Below are positions 27,762 to 34,815 of a stretch of 64,000 nt of DNA, piece after piece. The translations under genes were made by a program, and so were the position numbers. The notes under the pieces are model-generated. The model had not been told where the DNA came from. It saw only the letters and a list, made by a program, of their open reading frames with translations, and did not search any database. This stretch comes from an archaeon. GTDB taxonomy: Archaea; Nanobdellota; Nanobdellia; Pacearchaeales; GW2011-AR1. How positions within the stretch are numbered: the stretch's first letter is position 1; every line of letters starts with the position of its first letter. The stretch lies in contig JABHNB010000015.1 in the NCBI GenBank assembly GCA_018694115.1, positions 1 through 64,000 of the forward strand, in the 5' to 3' direction.

Positions 27762-28961
27762 ATGGACTCACTGTGTATTCGATGTAAGGGGAAGGGATTG
27801 TGTGGGAAACCATGCAAGATTCTTAGCAGATTTATGGATAGTGCCCCAAAGGTGAAATTGCATTTTTCTGGGAAGAGTGCTCCTGAGCTTTTTGTGGGGC
27901 GGGTTGGTTATCCCCATATAAATTCGGGGATCCTTGCCCCGAGCGACAATGATGAGATTTCTAATTTTGCAACAGCTGAAGAGTGGTCTAAGAATAATTT
28001 TTCTATTGAGAATGTTCTGCGTCTTAGGGGACAGTTAATTTATGGGCGAGGATTGTCCCATGTTAAATCTACAAATCAACTGAAAAAGGTGACTCAAGAA
28101 TTGGCATTGAGTTCTAAGCCGGTATCTACTGAGTTTTTTCTTAAGAAGAAACCAATCTTGAGTCTTAGTTCAAGCTCAGTTTTTAGGCCGATGACAAATC
28201 CTGCTCCGATAAAGAGGGTCCTTCTTGGGGAAAATGTTAAGGTTGAGAAAAAGATTGACTATCTTACCTCGGATTATGATATTAAATCTATGACTGCCTT
28301 GAAAGAACTTTATGGTTCGGGGGTTAGGGTTGATCATCTCCAAAAATTATTATCTGTTGGAATGCTGGGGGCGAAGATTGCCCGGAGAATGGTCCCTACC
28401 CGTTGGTCGATTACTGCAGTGGATGATACAATTTCTAAACAGTTGCTTAAGAAAATCAGATATTATCCTGAACTGAATGAGATTCTTCTTTTTTCTGGAA
28501 ATTTTGTTGGAAATTATATTGAAGTTTTGTTATTGCCTGGAAGACTTTCATTTGAGGCACTTGAAGGATGGTTGGCCGGGAATTTTTATGCCGGAGCTGA
28601 AACTAAGATCGGGCAAGATTATGAGGGATTTCATGATCGGAAGAGTTATGCTTCAAATATAACTGGAGGTTATTATGCAATGAGGCTTCCGGTATGCGAA
28701 TATCTTGATAAGATCGGGAGGCAGGCGACGATTTTGGTTCTTCGTGAGATTAGAAAGGAATATTATGCACCACTGGGAGTTGGGATTGTTCGGGAGTGTA
28801 CTCGTCGAGCAATGCGGAGTGTGCCTAGGAAGGTTGAGAGTATTGATGAGGCCTTTAATTTCATGAAGACTCGATTGAAAATCTCTGTTGACGATTTAAA
28901 AAACAGGTCGTGGGTTTTGGAGAATTATGGAAAGCAGAAGGGGCTTAGTGAATATTATTAG
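27762..28961 (+). CDS. Nre-family DNA repair protein
   Basis: CIRCKGKGLCGKPC, FVGRVGYPHINSGILAP; C-term QKGLSEYY PIP-like box. Confidence 0.85.
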   Translation: MDSLCIRCKGKGLCGKPCKILSRFMDSAPKVKLHFSGKSAPELFVGRVGYPHINSGILAPSDNDEISNFATAEEWSKNNFSIENVLRLRGQLIYGRGLSHVKSTNQLKKVTQELALSSKPVSTEFFLKKKPILSLSSSSVFRPMTNPAPIKRVLLGENVKVEKKIDYLTSDYDIKSMTALKELYGSGVRVDHLQKLLSVGMLGAKIARRMVPTRWSITAVDDTISKQLLKKIRYYPELNEILLFSGNFVGNYIEVLLLPGRLSFEALEGWLAGNFYAGAETKIGQDYEGFHDRKSYASNITGGYYAMRLPVCEYLDKIGRQATILVLREIRKEYYAPLGVGIVRECTRRAMRSVPRKVESIDEAFNFMKTRLKISVDDLKNRSWVLENYGKQKGLSEYY

Positions 28962-29626
28962 ATCATCTTTATGATATCGCCGATTTTTCCGGTAAATTTG
29001 TAAAGGTGTGCTGGTCTGAATGAAACTCCTTCTTGGAATTCTTGTGTTTCTTTTACTATGTCTAAGGATAGGATCTTTTTTCTGAAGTTTCTTTTATCGA
29101 ATTTCTTGTCGAAAATAGTTTCATAGATTTTTTGTAATTGAGTTAGCGAGAATTTTTTTGGAAGTATTGAGAATGCTATTGTAGTATATTCGAATTTCCA
29201 TCTGAGTCTCTGAATTGCGTAATCAAGAATTTTTTTATGGTCAAATGCAAGTTTGGGTAGGGATTTTACCGGAAACCATTTTACTTCCTCTGCTTCGGGA
29301 GAAGTAGAGAGTTTTGTGTCATTAGGATTAATGAGGGCAAAATATGCTATGGAGATAACTCTCCCCCTAGGATCTCTTTTAGGATCTCCGAAAGTATAAA
29401 GCTGTTCTAGATATTTTGCATCAACTCCTGTCTTTTCTTTTAGCTTTTTCTTTGCGGTATCTTCTATTGAATCTTTGATGTCTACAAATCCTCCCGGGAC
29501 GGTCCATGATCTCTTAAATGGTTCAATTCCTCTTTTGATAAGTAGTACATTTAATTCATTGTTCTTAATTGCGAAAATTATTACATCTGTTGTTACGGAG
29601 GGCTGTTTGTAGTCTGTTAGTTTCAT
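28958..29626 (-). CDS. nrtR: NrtR-type regulator (degenerate Nudix domain + winged helix)
   Basis: TVPGGFVDIKDSIEDTAKKKLKEKTGV (degenerate Nudix box), GDPKRDPRGRVISIAYFAL, C-terminal wHTH ending FRPAHLYKF. Confidence 0.8.
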   Translation of the reverse strand: MKLTDYKQPSVTTDVIIFAIKNNELNVLLIKRGIEPFKRSWTVPGGFVDIKDSIEDTAKKKLKEKTGVDAKYLEQLYTFGDPKRDPRGRVISIAYFALINPNDTKLSTSPEAEEVKWFPVKSLPKLAFDHKKILDYAIQRLRWKFEYTTIAFSILPKKFSLTQLQKIYETIFDKKFDKRNFRKKILSLDIVKETQEFQEGVSFRPAHLYKFTGKIGDIIKMI

Positions 29627-29676
29627 GGTGTAGTGAACACAATAAGGTATTTAAGCTTTGTTTTATTTGGGGCATT

Positions 29677-30159
29677 ATGGGAAATGAGGCTGCAAAAATG
29701 ATTGGGGAGTTATTGAAATCTCGTGGAGAGAGAATTGCAGTTGCGGAGAGCATTAGCGCAGGAAACATCCAGGCAGCTCTTTCTTCAAATTCTGGGGCTT
29801 CGGATTATTTTGAGGGTGGAATTACTGCATATAGCTTGAGACAAAAAGTTAATTTGTTGGGGATTGATGAGCAGAAAGCCAGGGAAGTTAATTGCGTTTC
29901 TCAGGATATTGCTAGAGATATGGCGGTGGCAGTTTCTTTGAAGTTTGGTACTGATTATGGAATTGGAACTACTGGTTATGCAGAACCTTGGGGGGAGATT
30001 AAGGTGCCCCATGCGTATTATTCAATTGCTCACGGAGGAATTGCCTTTCGTGGTGGCTGTATTGATGGAACGGGGCTAAGTCGCGAATCAATGCAAATTA
30101 AAGTTTCTAATGTGGTTCTTAAGGATCTTCTTTATCATTTGGATCTGTGGATCCGTTAG
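29677..30159 (+). CDS. CinA C-terminal/PncC-like (NMN amidohydrolase-like) protein
   Basis: RIAVAESISAGNIQAALSSNSGASDYFEGGITAYS...GIGTTGYAEP. Confidence 0.75.
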   Translation: MGNEAAKMIGELLKSRGERIAVAESISAGNIQAALSSNSGASDYFEGGITAYSLRQKVNLLGIDEQKAREVNCVSQDIARDMAVAVSLKFGTDYGIGTTGYAEPWGEIKVPHAYYSIAHGGIAFRGGCIDGTGLSRESMQIKVSNVVLKDLLYHLDLWIR

Positions 30160-30171
30160 TTTTCTTTAGAG

Positions 30172-31044
30172 TTATAATAAAACTGCGCCCTTAAATTGCC
30201 AGTCGTATCTTAAATGTCCGTCTGGGAAGAAAATAAGTTGTCTGAGATCTTTGCCTTCAGGTTTTATTGTTAGGCAATCTGAAAGACAAATGTTTTGTCC
30301 GTGAAGATCGTAAACAACTCCTCCGTGATCTAGGGTCATAAGCTTGTTTCCTTCTTCTTTTAGAAATGCGTCGATTTCCTCTAATTGTTTTCTTGTTAAT
30401 TGTCTCTTTTTAGTCCAGTTGAAGACTTCGATATCTTCTGATTCTTTTGGAGTTGTGACTCCCCTAACTGTAAGTTGTTCTACTCCCCATTCCTCAACTT
30501 TCTTAACTAACTCTTTTACTTCTTTTGCCGAGTCTATGTAGTCTTTTAGCATTATGCAACTAAGTCTAATTGAATATCCTAGCTTGTGAAGTTTATCGAT
30601 TACCTCTCCAAGTTCAATGTAGTCTGAGTGTGGCGTATAAATCTCCTTATTTCTTTTCTTGTCATAGTGGACCATAGAAATTGCGATTGTGTTTAAACCT
30701 AACTTTCTCCATTCTTTTAGATAGGGTTCGTATTTCTCAAATTGATTTCCAATTACTAATGCATTTGTTTGGATTTCAACTAATGGAAAATCAAATTTTT
30801 TCATGTGTTCTAGAAATTCAGTTATTTGATCTGGGTATAACAGGGGTTCTCCTTTTCCAGTTAGTAAGACTGTACTGACGTTATTTATTTGTGCTAATCT
30901 ACATGCTTTATCGAAGTTTAGCCAATTTACATCTTGTAGTTCGAAATTTAATCCTTGTTTTGGAGTCATCCTAGAAATACAATACGGGCAACTCGCGTTA
31001 CATGCTGCAGTTCCGACGACGATTGTGAATGTCTGTATTTTCAT
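30172..31044 (-). CDS. Radical SAM protein
   Basis: CNASCPYC cluster motif; VLLTGKGEPLLYP; end of NAD salvage operon. Confidence 0.85.
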   Translation of the reverse strand: MKIQTFTIVVGTAACNASCPYCISRMTPKQGLNFELQDVNWLNFDKACRLAQINNVSTVLLTGKGEPLLYPDQITEFLEHMKKFDFPLVEIQTNALVIGNQFEKYEPYLKEWRKLGLNTIAISMVHYDKKRNKEIYTPHSDYIELGEVIDKLHKLGYSIRLSCIMLKDYIDSAKEVKELVKKVEEWGVEQLTVRGVTTPKESEDIEVFNWTKKRQLTRKQLEEIDAFLKEEGNKLMTLDHGGVVYDLHGQNICLSDCLTIKPEGKDLRQLIFFPDGHLRYDWQFKGAVLL

Positions 31045-31619
31045 TTGTAAAGTCCTTTTTGTTTAATAAGTTCTACAATATTTGAGGGAAGGAATTCCTT
31101 AAATGTCTTCCCATTCTTGATCCTTTCTCGAATTTCTGTTGAAGATGTGGAGTCTGGATTGGAGGTTATTGTTCCGGCAATTTTCATTCCGAATTCATTA
31201 GTTATTGGGTAGCCAGGTCTTTTGAATACAATGAATTCTATTTCATTTATGAGTTCTTCATATTTGTTCCATCGAGAAATTTGTGAAGGGATGTCGGATC
31301 CCACGATTAGAAAAAACTTGTGGGGATGAATTTCCTTTAATTTTTTTATTGTATCTATCATATAACTTTTTTCTTCGGATTGGAGTTCTATTTCTTCGAT
31401 TTTTGTATTGGGTATATGCTCTATTGAACGCTTTATCATTTCGACTCTTGTTGGTCCATCAACTAGATCTTTTCCGAAAGCATGATTCCCACAGGGGAGT
31501 GCCCAAATTTCATCAACAAGTCCATTTTTTAGAGTATCTTCAATTAGGCGAACGTGTTCTTTGTGAATTGGATTAAAACTTCCTCCGAGAATTCCGATCT
31601 TCTTTGATTCAGCGTCCAT
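31041..31619 (-). CDS. nadD: Nicotinate-nucleotide adenylyltransferase, bacterial NadD type
   Basis: IGILGGSFNPIHKEHVRL; FLIVGSDIPSQISRW; STSSTEIRERIKNG. Confidence 0.85.
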   Translation of the reverse strand: MDAESKKIGILGGSFNPIHKEHVRLIEDTLKNGLVDEIWALPCGNHAFGKDLVDGPTRVEMIKRSIEHIPNTKIEEIELQSEEKSYMIDTIKKLKEIHPHKFFLIVGSDIPSQISRWNKYEELINEIEFIVFKRPGYPITNEFGMKIAGTITSNPDSTSSTEIRERIKNGKTFKEFLPSNIVELIKQKGLYK

Positions 31620-32043
31620 TTCTTTTTCTCCAGACTAGATAATCGTTTACCATGTCATTGTGGTCGAATGCAAGTTTTGGTATTTCGTCTAGTGAGAACC
31701 ATTCTACTTCTTTTGCATCGTCTCTTGGTTTTGCTATTCCTGAATATCTGCTTGCGATGTAGGTATGGGAGATTACGTGTCCACGTGGATCACGATCTGG
31801 GCTAGAATAATTATTTAATAGGATTAGGTCTTTCTCTTTTGCAATTAAACATGTTTCTTCTCCAAGTTCCCTGCAGGCTGCATGTTCAAGAGTTTCTTTT
31901 CCACAATCAAGATATCCTCCAGGTAATGCCCATTCTCCATTGGCTTCTTCTCCTCCTCGCTTAATTAGGAGGATTCTTTCCAAATTATCTTCTACAATCA
32001 CATCGACTGTTGCTGCTGGGTTAATGAATTCAACTTCGTGCAT
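31609..32043 (-). CDS. Nudix hydrolase (ADP-ribose pyrophosphatase-like)
   Basis: LPGGYLDCGKETLEHAACRELGEET Nudix box; SSPDRDPRGHVISHTY. Confidence 0.8.
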   Translation of the reverse strand: MHEVEFINPAATVDVIVEDNLERILLIKRGGEEANGEWALPGGYLDCGKETLEHAACRELGEETCLIAKEKDLILLNNYSSPDRDPRGHVISHTYIASRYSGIAKPRDDAKEVEWFSLDEIPKLAFDHNDMVNDYLVWRKRNGR

Positions 32044-32048
32044 TTTCC

Positions 32049-32903
32049 TTATACTCCGTTAATTTCATTTTCCTTGTAGGATAGATTTACTTTTCCTACG
32101 GGGGGAACCTTTCTTTTGTGTTCGTTTATTTTGTGTCTATGTGATACATCCTCTATGATTCTTCTTTCAAAACCTGTGATTTGTTGAATTTGTTCTGCGT
32201 CATACCCTTGATCAAAACCGTTTTGAACTATTTCTGCTTGGTCGTAGGTATATCCTAGATCTCCTTCATCAGTTTGGCCTTGACATAATCCTGCAGTTGG
32301 TACTCGGCCTACAAGATCTTCGGGGGCCCCAAGGTGTTTTGCTAATTCCCTAACCAATCTTTTTGGCAGATTTCCTAGTATGTTGTTATCTACTGCTCCG
32401 TCTCCTCGTTTTGTAAAATAACCCAATACATAATCTTCATCTCGATTTCCAGTTCCCATAACTCTGCAATTTTTGGCTGCGGCAATTCTGCTTAAGATAA
32501 CTGCCCTTGTTTCGGAGTATAAGTTTCCTTTATCAAATTCATTATCTATTTCTGGGAACTGATTAATGAATGCCTCGGCGATTGGCTCAATTGGAATTGT
32601 TATGTCCTTTATTCCTAGGTTTTTTGCTACCTTTAAACCGTCTTGTTCATCACTGACGTGATTTGCTTTTGAGGGCATTATAATTCCAAATAATTTTAAT
32701 GGTTTTTCACCGGGATTGTTTTTGTTATATTTATCAAAGGCATATTTGCATAGGTATGCAACAGTTGTTGAATCGATTCCCCCACTTAATCCTAGAACTC
32801 CTCCGTCTGCTCCAGATCCTCTTGTGAATCTAATAATTTCTTCGGCAAGCTGATTTAATGCTTCTTTTGTTCCTTCTGTGAAATACGCTTTTTTTATTTT
32901 CAT
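32049..32903 (-). CDS. nadE: NH3-dependent NAD+ synthetase
   Basis: LGLSGGIDSTTVAYLC; TGNRDEDYVLGYFTKRGDGAVD. Confidence 0.9.
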   Translation of the reverse strand: MKIKKAYFTEGTKEALNQLAEEIIRFTRGSGADGGVLGLSGGIDSTTVAYLCKYAFDKYNKNNPGEKPLKLFGIIMPSKANHVSDEQDGLKVAKNLGIKDITIPIEPIAEAFINQFPEIDNEFDKGNLYSETRAVILSRIAAAKNCRVMGTGNRDEDYVLGYFTKRGDGAVDNNILGNLPKRLVRELAKHLGAPEDLVGRVPTAGLCQGQTDEGDLGYTYDQAEIVQNGFDQGYDAEQIQQITGFERRIIEDVSHRHKINEHKRKVPPVGKVNLSYKENEINGV

Positions 32904-32940
32904 TTTATTGTAATTATTTCTCAATTTAACTTTATAATCG

Positions 32941-33591
32941 TTAGCTTCTCCATATTTTGCCTTCAAGAACATCTTTCAGGTTTACAAATTCAGCTCCTGC
33001 CCTTTCCATATCATTTACTGCTTTTTTTGTGTCTCCGGGATTGGCTTCTAATGCATATATTCCTTCATTTACGACATACGTTTGAATTCCATTTTTTTGC
33101 ATTCCCAAAACTGCGTCTTTAACGCACCAGTCAGTCAAAACTCCATAAACTACTGCTTCATCTATTTTTGCATAGTTCATGAATTCTCCAACTGCAGGAT
33201 TTGTGTGGATGTCATACATTTGTTTTTCGAAGAGGATTCCCCTTTGTTTGAGACCTTGCTTGAATATCTCTAGATCTATGTGTTCATCCAGATAGTGCGG
33301 ATGTATTATTCCTCCAAAATCTGTTTCCGGAATTTTTCTTAGGCCTTCTGTCCCCTTTTTTGTATGCATTGGAAATGGTCCTCCGTTTACAATTAATTCT
33401 ACTTCCCTATGGCTATATTCTGGAGTTCCAAAATGAACATCCATCCCCCCGACCAACATAATGCCGTTATCTTTTGCATATTGTGTTAATTGACCTAATG
33501 CTGGTCTAATTATTTCTACACCCTTAGCATACATTGGTGCTCCAAGATCCATAAAATCCTTTTGTGTTTCTACGTCGTAGAAGATTCTCAT
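32941..33591 (-). CDS. pncA: Nicotinamidase-like (isochorismatase fold)
   Basis: VETQKDFM (Asp), DVHFGTPEYSH metal motif, VYGVLTDWCVKDAVLGM (Cys). Confidence 0.8.
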   Translation of the reverse strand: MRIFYDVETQKDFMDLGAPMYAKGVEIIRPALGQLTQYAKDNGIMLVGGMDVHFGTPEYSHREVELIVNGGPFPMHTKKGTEGLRKIPETDFGGIIHPHYLDEHIDLEIFKQGLKQRGILFEKQMYDIHTNPAVGEFMNYAKIDEAVVYGVLTDWCVKDAVLGMQKNGIQTYVVNEGIYALEANPGDTKKAVNDMERAGAEFVNLKDVLEGKIWRS

Positions 33592-34730
33592 TATAATACT
33601 CTCTCCATATATTTTTTATTTGGTTTTGGGGGCCTTCCGTTCTTGTGAGTTATGTTTCTTGCTTCGACATCTCTTCCGACGTAAAAGTCTACTTGATCTG
33701 GTTCTTCCCCAACTGCAATAACATCTGCTGTTGCTGTCCGAATTCCGTCAAGAAAACCTGCACCAAGGAAATCATATAATCTCATTTTGAATTCTCTTTC
33801 TCCTTCATTGAAGGCCTTGACTTTCTCAGGATTACTAAATCCACTACTTAGTCCGGTTTTTACATACTCATGACTTGCTTCGTTAAGTGCTTTTCTTAGT
33901 GCACGTACTCCATAAACAGTGACCCCATTTCCTTCCCAGAATTTTCTATTTCCGGACCTTCCACCTTCTGAAAGATTTTCGCCACAGGTATCTGTTCTGA
34001 CCCCATATAGATTTCCATTAAGAACTTCTGCGGTTGCTATAGAATCTGTTATTTCTCTATTTGCATAATCTATTAGTGCAATTCTTGGAACTGCCGGATC
34101 GATAACTTCGTTGAATGCTTTTGTGGATTCTACTACCGCGTTATTTCTTCCGAAATAGTATGCGAATATGTTTTCTAATGCATGGGGGATTGTTCCTGAC
34201 CCTTCTTTTCCGACTAGTTCTGCCCCATTATCTGTTGCAACTGCAGCACATCCATTTGCAAACGCTAGATTTGCTAATGCAGAATCATAAGTCCAGTGCC
34301 AGTGCCTTGCTCCAAAGTATAAAACGGGCCTATCTCCTGCAAGATCTACCACTTGCCTCATTTGCTCTCCGATAGCATTGAAATCAAGATCTTTCTTGTC
34401 GTTTTCTCTTGTTACTTCTGCTGCGATTGGCCCTAGATATACCGTTTCTAATTCGTCGATTTCCTGGATTGGCGAAATGATGTTTAGTTGAGTTTCCCCA
34501 GATTCATATGTTGACCCTTTTGGCTTTGCATAAATTCTTCCTCCAACTTCAGCTATATTAGAATTACTTGTAATTATGTCTACTGCTTCTTCTAAGCCTG
34601 CAACTTTTCCTGGGCCCTTCCTCACAAATACTTGCATATTTACCCAAGGATTCATATCCTTTGCTTTCAAGATTTCGTTGAATCTTAGGAAGTATTTGTC
34701 CGTGTACTTTTGCATCTTGTTCTTTGCCAT
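33591..34730 (-). CDS. pncB: Nicotinate phosphoribosyltransferase
   Basis: FGARHWHWTYDSALANLAFANGCAAVATDNGAELVG; operon neighbours. Confidence 0.8.
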   Translation of the reverse strand: MAKNKMQKYTDKYFLRFNEILKAKDMNPWVNMQVFVRKGPGKVAGLEEAVDIITSNSNIAEVGGRIYAKPKGSTYESGETQLNIISPIQEIDELETVYLGPIAAEVTRENDKKDLDFNAIGEQMRQVVDLAGDRPVLYFGARHWHWTYDSALANLAFANGCAAVATDNGAELVGKEGSGTIPHALENIFAYYFGRNNAVVESTKAFNEVIDPAVPRIALIDYANREITDSIATAEVLNGNLYGVRTDTCGENLSEGGRSGNRKFWEGNGVTVYGVRALRKALNEASHEYVKTGLSSGFSNPEKVKAFNEGEREFKMRLYDFLGAGFLDGIRTATADVIAVGEEPDQVDFYVGRDVEARNITHKNGRPPKPNKKYMERVL

Positions 34731-34733
34731 GAC

Positions 34734-34754
34734 ATAGTGTATAATATACACTAT
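34734..34754. promoter_or_regulatory. Perfect 21-nt palindrome ATAGTGTATA-A-TATACACTAT at NAD operon promoter (candidate NrtR operator)
   Basis: 10-nt exactly complementary arms; lies between the minus-strand TATA (TTTATATAG) and the pncB ATG at 34730. Confidence 0.8.
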
Positions 34755-34815
34755 ATAAAGATTGTGGTTCTGGAATATATGTGTTTTTTAGGTGATTTTT
34801 GGAATAATTTGAGAA

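Follow-up and report, generated by a model that had tools for sequence, protein, structure and literature searches.

The window analysed here is a 64,000-nucleotide stretch of contig JABHNB010000015.1 (assembly GCA_018694115.1) from a Pacearchaeales archaeon. It carries a run of NAD salvage genes together with nrtR, the gene for a Nudix-related transcriptional regulator. We put a probability of about 85% on the model that these genes belong to an NrtR regulon with a repressor released by ADP-ribose, in a small DPANN archaeon living by NAD salvage. The computed evidence consists of the gene content, an operator and its placement, a second operon, and the co-occurrence of operator and NrtR.

According to this model, an NrtR dimer would bind a palindrome between an archaeal TATA box and the start codon, and the bound repressor would block the TATA-binding protein (TBP)/transcription factor B (TFB) or RNA polymerase. 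NrtR would control pncB-pncA-nadE-nudix-nadD-rSAM1 (rSAM1 being a radical SAM gene), an operon of pnuC, nadR and genes for an ADP-ribosylhydrolase, a SLOG protein and a nucleoside deoxyribosyltransferase (NDT)-like protein, and probably itself. Upon NAD breakdown, ADP-ribose would enter the dead Nudix pocket and the repressor would be released. Nicotinamide would then be converted via nicotinate, nicotinate mononucleotide (NaMN) and nicotinate adenine dinucleotide (NaAD) to NAD by PncA, PncB, NadD and NadE; nicotinamide riboside would be taken up and used via PnuC and NadR; and the operon's intact Nudix hydrolase would destroy the ADP-ribose signal. Binding, repression, ADP-ribose as the effector and the substrate of the hydrolase are what we infer from sequence.

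The candidate operator and its promoters

The genes from pncB to rSAM1 all lie on the minus strand (Table 1), and adjacent open reading frames (ORFs) overlap or are 5 bp apart. Given this tight spacing, they read as a single operon. ORF coordinates and family scans confirm the contiguous run described in an earlier, sequence-only reading of the window. That reading also placed a pncC-like gene and nrtR just beyond; both are present, but nrtR is outside the operon, with the pncC-like gene in between. The palindrome invoked in the same reading was located and is perfect. It overlaps the TATA box of pncB and ends 3 bp upstream of the pncB ATG (position 34730, within a GTG frame that begins at 34751). 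The short distance from the TATA box centre to the ATG suggests that the pncB mRNA is probably leaderless.

We scanned the genome with the 19-bp core of the palindrome, TAGTGTA-N5-TACACTA. The sole exact match is the pncB promoter, and the sole match with one mismatch ends 4 bp upstream of the pnuC ATG on contig C13; from base composition, about 0.01 exact and 0.4 one-mismatch matches would be expected. The pnuC promoter has the same TATA/operator arrangement as the pncB promoter, and 33 of 36 bases are identical between the two. The operon on C13 consists of five overlapping genes (L019:4910-8359) encoding PnuC, NadR, the ADP-ribosylhydrolase, the SLOG protein and the NDT-like protein. Given the one-mismatch operator before pnuC, we count this unlinked operon in the regulon. 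A match with three mismatches overlaps the start of nrtR; this weak site is possibly autoregulatory. A palindrome with two mismatches at C11:77815 is located within a 713-residue reading frame and was dismissed as a chance match. NDT-like genes turn up again in other DPANN nrtR loci.

Our phylum sample comprised 371 genomes; for NadD and NadM, the counts are over 237 genomes of the phylum. NrtR-like proteins match in 58 of the 371 genomes, mostly adjoining NAD genes; several of these 58 match incompletely or as an ordinary Nudix protein. The DPANN nrtR loci and the host pnuC locus together contain 95 operator-like sites, compared with 14 expected after shuffling, and 65 of the 95 are close to the start of an NAD gene, in regions that make up 6% of the sequence. 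We also searched all genomes for the operator consensus TTAGTGTA-N5-TACACTAA, independently of gene calls. It was found in 25 genomes, of which 22 carry NrtR (Fisher p = 6e-17, somewhat overstated because related genomes are not independent); a reversed control pattern gave p = 0.30. A genome of the same genus (G015) has the identical 21-bp operator upstream of a different, bacterial-type nicotinate phosphoribosyltransferase (NAPRT) gene, in a cluster that merges both host operons: pncB-pncA-rSAM-PLP-nadE-nadD-nudix-pnuC-nadR-nadK-nrtR (PLP, pyridoxal-phosphate-fold gene). The Pfam domains described below, the operator and its phylum-wide co-occurrence with NrtR bear out the proposal of an NrtR-type regulator and regulon.

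The NrtR protein and its Nudix box

The window NrtR has the family architecture, a winged helix (PF21906, 87.9 bits; cut-off 27) and a NUDIX domain (PF00293, 71.5 bits; cut-off 21.1). It matches the solved NrtR-family structures 5bs6 and 3gz5 over both domains. The best match (202 bits, both domains) is BtAraR from Bacteroides (PDB 5bs6), which senses L-arabinose and controls sugar genes. In contrast, the predicted targets of the window NrtR are NAD genes, and it has retained R87 and K65 as contacts for nucleotide phosphate.

The Nudix box of the window NrtR reads G-x5-D-x7-KKLKEKTGV. At the five signature positions it has DKKEK instead of EREEE, so that four of five are changed. The sequence-only reading had noted this degenerate box as typical of NrtR sensors. 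The box is real but unusual for an archaeal NrtR: the full EREEE signature is kept in 44 of 55 archaeal (DPANN) proteins, and likewise in 55 of the 74 relatives from bacteria. An impaired signature has been reported for bacterial NAD-regulating NrtRs, which resemble the window protein in this respect and in having a lysine at the position of K76 in SoNrtR of Shewanella oneidensis (PMC4666351). SoNrtR contacts ADP-ribose through R41, K76 and R98, with K76 touching the α-phosphate (PMC4666351). These residues align with R32, K65 and R87 of the window NrtR; the K65/K76 equivalence comes from the structure-match alignment, with a numbering offset that we computed. All 55 archaeal NrtRs share R32, R87 and H130, three residues aligned with effector contacts. 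They also share D177, N180, K183 and R204 in the DNA-binding domain; going by the spacing of the motif, we equated these four with residues through which MsNrtR (Mycobacterium smegmatis) contacts DNA (PMC6800001). Judged by its residues, the window NrtR looks like a pure sensor, whereas enzymatic activity may persist in many related proteins.

The SoNrtR and MsNrtR regulons are similar to the present one in combining Nudix and winged helix domains and in having NAD genes and nrtR as targets, which are predicted ones here. The MsNrtR operator, GTTTTCGA-N7-TCGAAAAC (PMC6800001), has an N7 spacer resembling GTGT-N7-ACAC of the host operator. The host system differs from the bacterial regulons in being archaeal, in its TATA-type promoters with an operator overlapping the TATA box, and in being apparently restricted to salvage; it adds the radical SAM gene and the ADP-ribosylhydrolase operon.

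Other NrtR-like proteins deserve mention. A second, deeply separate DPANN group (100/100; loci L178-L183 in genomes G241, G205, G122, G115, G332 and G186) has another impaired box, and some of its loci have a different type of palindrome, TTACGTAA...TTACGTAA, upstream of nrtR. The catalytic box was lost independently (RILKEKT/RVLKEKT) in a mostly Gastranaerophilales clade (L041, L043, L045, L048, L050-L052 and related gut bacteria). A protein of ~500 residues, with an N-terminal nucleotidyltransferase-like part (GRHH motif, by eye) and a methyltransferase domain, is encoded near nrtR, often divergently, in L013, L014, L139, L144, L157, L176, L026 and L040.

Origin of the proposed regulon and rival explanations

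The host genome assembly is 899 kb in 16 contigs and 83% complete. An archaeal NreA gene on the same contig overlaps nrtR by 4 bp, which makes contamination by a bacterial contig unlikely, and the named organisms with related NrtRs are Woesearchaeota and Pacearchaeota. NadM is the usual archaeal adenylyltransferase. The sequence-only reading had proposed to check for its absence, but contig C14 contains a NadM-like gene (NF002243, 140.9 bits, above the cut-off of 127; TIGR01527, 115.1 bits, below the cut-off of 181.2), and NadM is matched in 76 of 237 phylum genomes, including the host. NadR is present in the C13 operon. A search for nadA, one of the de novo genes whose absence the reading had also proposed to check, found none in the 83% complete host genome or in its genus, and the host seems unable to make NAD de novo.

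The sequence-only reading took the block for a bacterial regulon transplanted into an archaeon. As a recent transfer of the complete regulon in one piece, we consider this unlikely. NadD would fit it, and was correctly recognised as the bacterial type: it exceeds the TIGR00482 cut-off, which happens in just 3 of the 237 genomes and always next to nrtR. The nearest sampled kin of NadD are two bacteria of the candidate phyla radiation (CPR) that also have nrtR clusters (96/81; CPR sampling for this tree was from genomes found through NrtR). In many bacteria, and in CPR, the same operator motif is found upstream of nrtR and of NAD genes, which would fit as well. However, the eight DPANN copies of NadD form one clade (95/85), and the other gene trees weaken a recent wholesale transfer. 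The window NrtR belongs to an all-DPANN clade of 13 (100/89), nested in a larger one with 22 members (96/96) that is likewise purely DPANN, and NadE falls within an all-DPANN clade of 14 (Shimodaira-Hasegawa-like approximate likelihood ratio test, SH-aLRT, 95). Gene order and content vary between loci, and the promoters resemble archaeal ones in their TATA boxes and seemingly leaderless starts. NadD is the only tree-tested gene that seems to have been acquired from bacteria. The overall picture is mosaic, with a bacterial nadD added to a regulon already established in DPANN. The deeper between-domain branching of the NrtR tree lacks resolution and requires four label changes; NrtR may have passed between the domains in either direction or may have a single origin, and at greater depth of time the regulon may be bacterial. 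A NadD apparently fused to a Nudix domain (334 residues; L144:3898-4902, G070) was also seen in an nrtR cluster.

Two further explanations concern NrtR itself. It could be a bifunctional enzyme-repressor hydrolysing its own ligand, and the full signature in most DPANN and bacterial relatives indeed makes a working enzyme plausible for most of the family. For the window protein we regard this as very unlikely, given the changed signature positions, the lysine at the place of SoNrtR K76 (PMC4666351) and the separate intact Nudix hydrolase in the operon. The palindrome could also belong to another regulator, with NrtR acting elsewhere or merely as a Nudix protein, as the location of nrtR outside the operon might suggest. 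We find this hardly credible in view of the operator/NrtR co-occurrence (22 of 25 genomes, compared with 58 of 371 overall), the same motif upstream of nrtR itself in archaea and bacteria, and the invariant residues aligned with DNA contacts.

Several findings count against the regulon model with ADP-ribose as the releasing signal. By Pfam the window NrtR is a family member, but it is outside the narrow NF050029 model, 'ADPR responsive NrtR' (198.4 bits; cut-off 400). The family also includes arabinose- and NAD-responsive members (PMC4666351); together with the missed cut-off, this leaves ADP-ribose as a putative effector. In 36 of the 58 genomes with an NrtR-like match, the consensus operator is absent at up to one mismatch, and the host genome is among them, as its outer operator bases differ from the consensus. 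Absences in the host genome are soft, given its completeness.

The radical SAM gene and the remaining features

rSAM1 could be assigned to none of the named families of NCBIfam, Pfam and PHROGs. Its best NCBIfam match is MoaA (52.8 bits; cut-off 284), and it exceeds no curated cut-off of a known radical SAM family such as MoaA, viperin or QueE. It occurs in 18 of 371 phylum genomes, and most copies adjoin NAD genes. In several DPANN genomes a PLP-fold gene directly follows, and a CPR genome (locus L075) has the order nrtR-pncB-rSAM1-PLP-pncA; a PLP partner was sought in the host genome and not found. Full or near-full relatives are present on ~55 contigs of the viral collection IMG/VR. A few of these have the order pncA-rSAM1-NAPRT-nadD-nadE, and some metagenomic viral contigs carry nrtR. 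A search of 50,697 phage records for rSAM1 gave no match, and the tested neighbours on the IMG/VR contigs include few viral hallmark genes. These contigs are thus putatively viral, and we set aside a phage origin of the cassette. Phages do carry the NAD salvage genes NadV, NadM and NadR (PMC9503650), a similar case of NAD-rebuilding genes in large viral genomes; radical SAM is absent from the main text of that survey.

The AlphaFold model of rSAM1 (predicted local distance difference test, pLDDT, 92) is nearest in fold to MoaA, viperin and the peptide-modifying SuiB. MoaA and viperin, which act on nucleotides, match with template modelling (TM) scores of about 0.6-0.7 and 12-17% identity, and by E-value SuiB is just as close; that rSAM1 acts on a nucleotide is a guess. 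Our tentative proposal, which we hold to be somewhat less likely than its negation, is that rSAM1 is a new NAD salvage enzyme of an undescribed radical SAM family. It would be under NrtR control here and occur in large metagenomic viruses as well as in DPANN and CPR, frequently with a PLP-fold enzyme as its partner in DPANN archaea and in one sampled CPR bacterium. It might make or repair a pyridine nucleotide or precursor outside the known salvage steps. A different radical SAM protein (rSAM2) directly adjoins nrtR in L015:7385-8218 and L017:8748-9578, with an operator-like site upstream of rSAM2 in L015.

PncB is the weakest family call in the operon, its best NCBIfam score being under the curated cut-off, and its presumed role is drawn from similarity and operon context. 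In PncA, the D/K/C triad and the DxH..H..H ligands were recognised by eye. The operon's Nudix hydrolase is a probable ADP-ribose pyrophosphatase, judging by similarity. In addition, contig C1 of genome G000 (L004) has apparently fused CoaD- and CoaE-like domains beside Dfp/CoaB-like and Nudix genes (named by eye).

Table 1. Features of the NAD salvage locus, in window coordinates.
Feature	Position	Strand	Evidence and remarks
Candidate NrtR operator, perfect palindrome ATAGTGTATAATATACACTAT	34734-34754	.	21 bp, 10+1+10; placed between the TATA box and the start of pncB
Archaeal TATA box TTTATATA of pncB	34752-34759	-	Sequence; centre ~25 bp upstream of ATG
pncB, nicotinate phosphoribosyltransferase (archaeal/mollicute type)	33591-34730	-	NF006415, 133.9 bits (below cut-off 243); PF02749, 27.4 (cut-off 27)
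pncA, nicotinamidase (isochorismatase fold)	32941-33591	-	PF00857, 39.6 bits (cut-off 27)
nadE, NAD synthetase without glutaminase domain	32049-32972	-	TIGR00552, 182.2 (cut-off 63.65); start codon uncertain
Nudix hydrolase	31609-32043	-	Catalytic RELGEE intact; PF00293, 78 bits; NCBIfam top matches include NadM-Nudix fusions
nadD, nicotinate-nucleotide adenylyltransferase, bacterial type	31041-31619	-	TIGR00482, 130.6 (above cut-off 112.45)
rSAM1, radical SAM protein	30172-31044	-	C15-x3-C19-x2-C22; Pfam superfamily domain, 46.7 (cut-off 29.5)
pncC-like nicotinamide mononucleotide (NMN) deamidase domain protein	about 29677-30159	+	Divergent from nrtR; TIGR00199, 88.7 (cut-off 68.9); PF02464, 97 bits
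Weak candidate NrtR operator at nrtR start	29626-29644	.	3 mismatches to core; similar position at nrtR in other DPANN loci
nrtR, Nudix-related transcriptional regulator	28958-29626	-	Degenerate Nudix box; PF21906 and NUDIX matches

NrtR is treated as bacterial in the literature we found, with none found in Sulfolobus acidocaldarius (PMC10311068). The homologue search of an eLife study took in archaeal sequences, and that paper describes bacterial groups. We found no description of an archaeal NrtR regulon in the mostly open-access literature searched. The regulon proposed here would extend a metabolite-sensing repressor known from bacteria to the archaea, with its operator set on archaeal promoter elements and found repeatedly in a phylum whose members are mostly small, uncultivated cells. 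The proposal yields predictions on how these organisms monitor and rebuild NAD, and rSAM1, common to archaea, candidate-phyla bacteria and metagenomic viral contigs, may be a missing piece of NAD metabolism.

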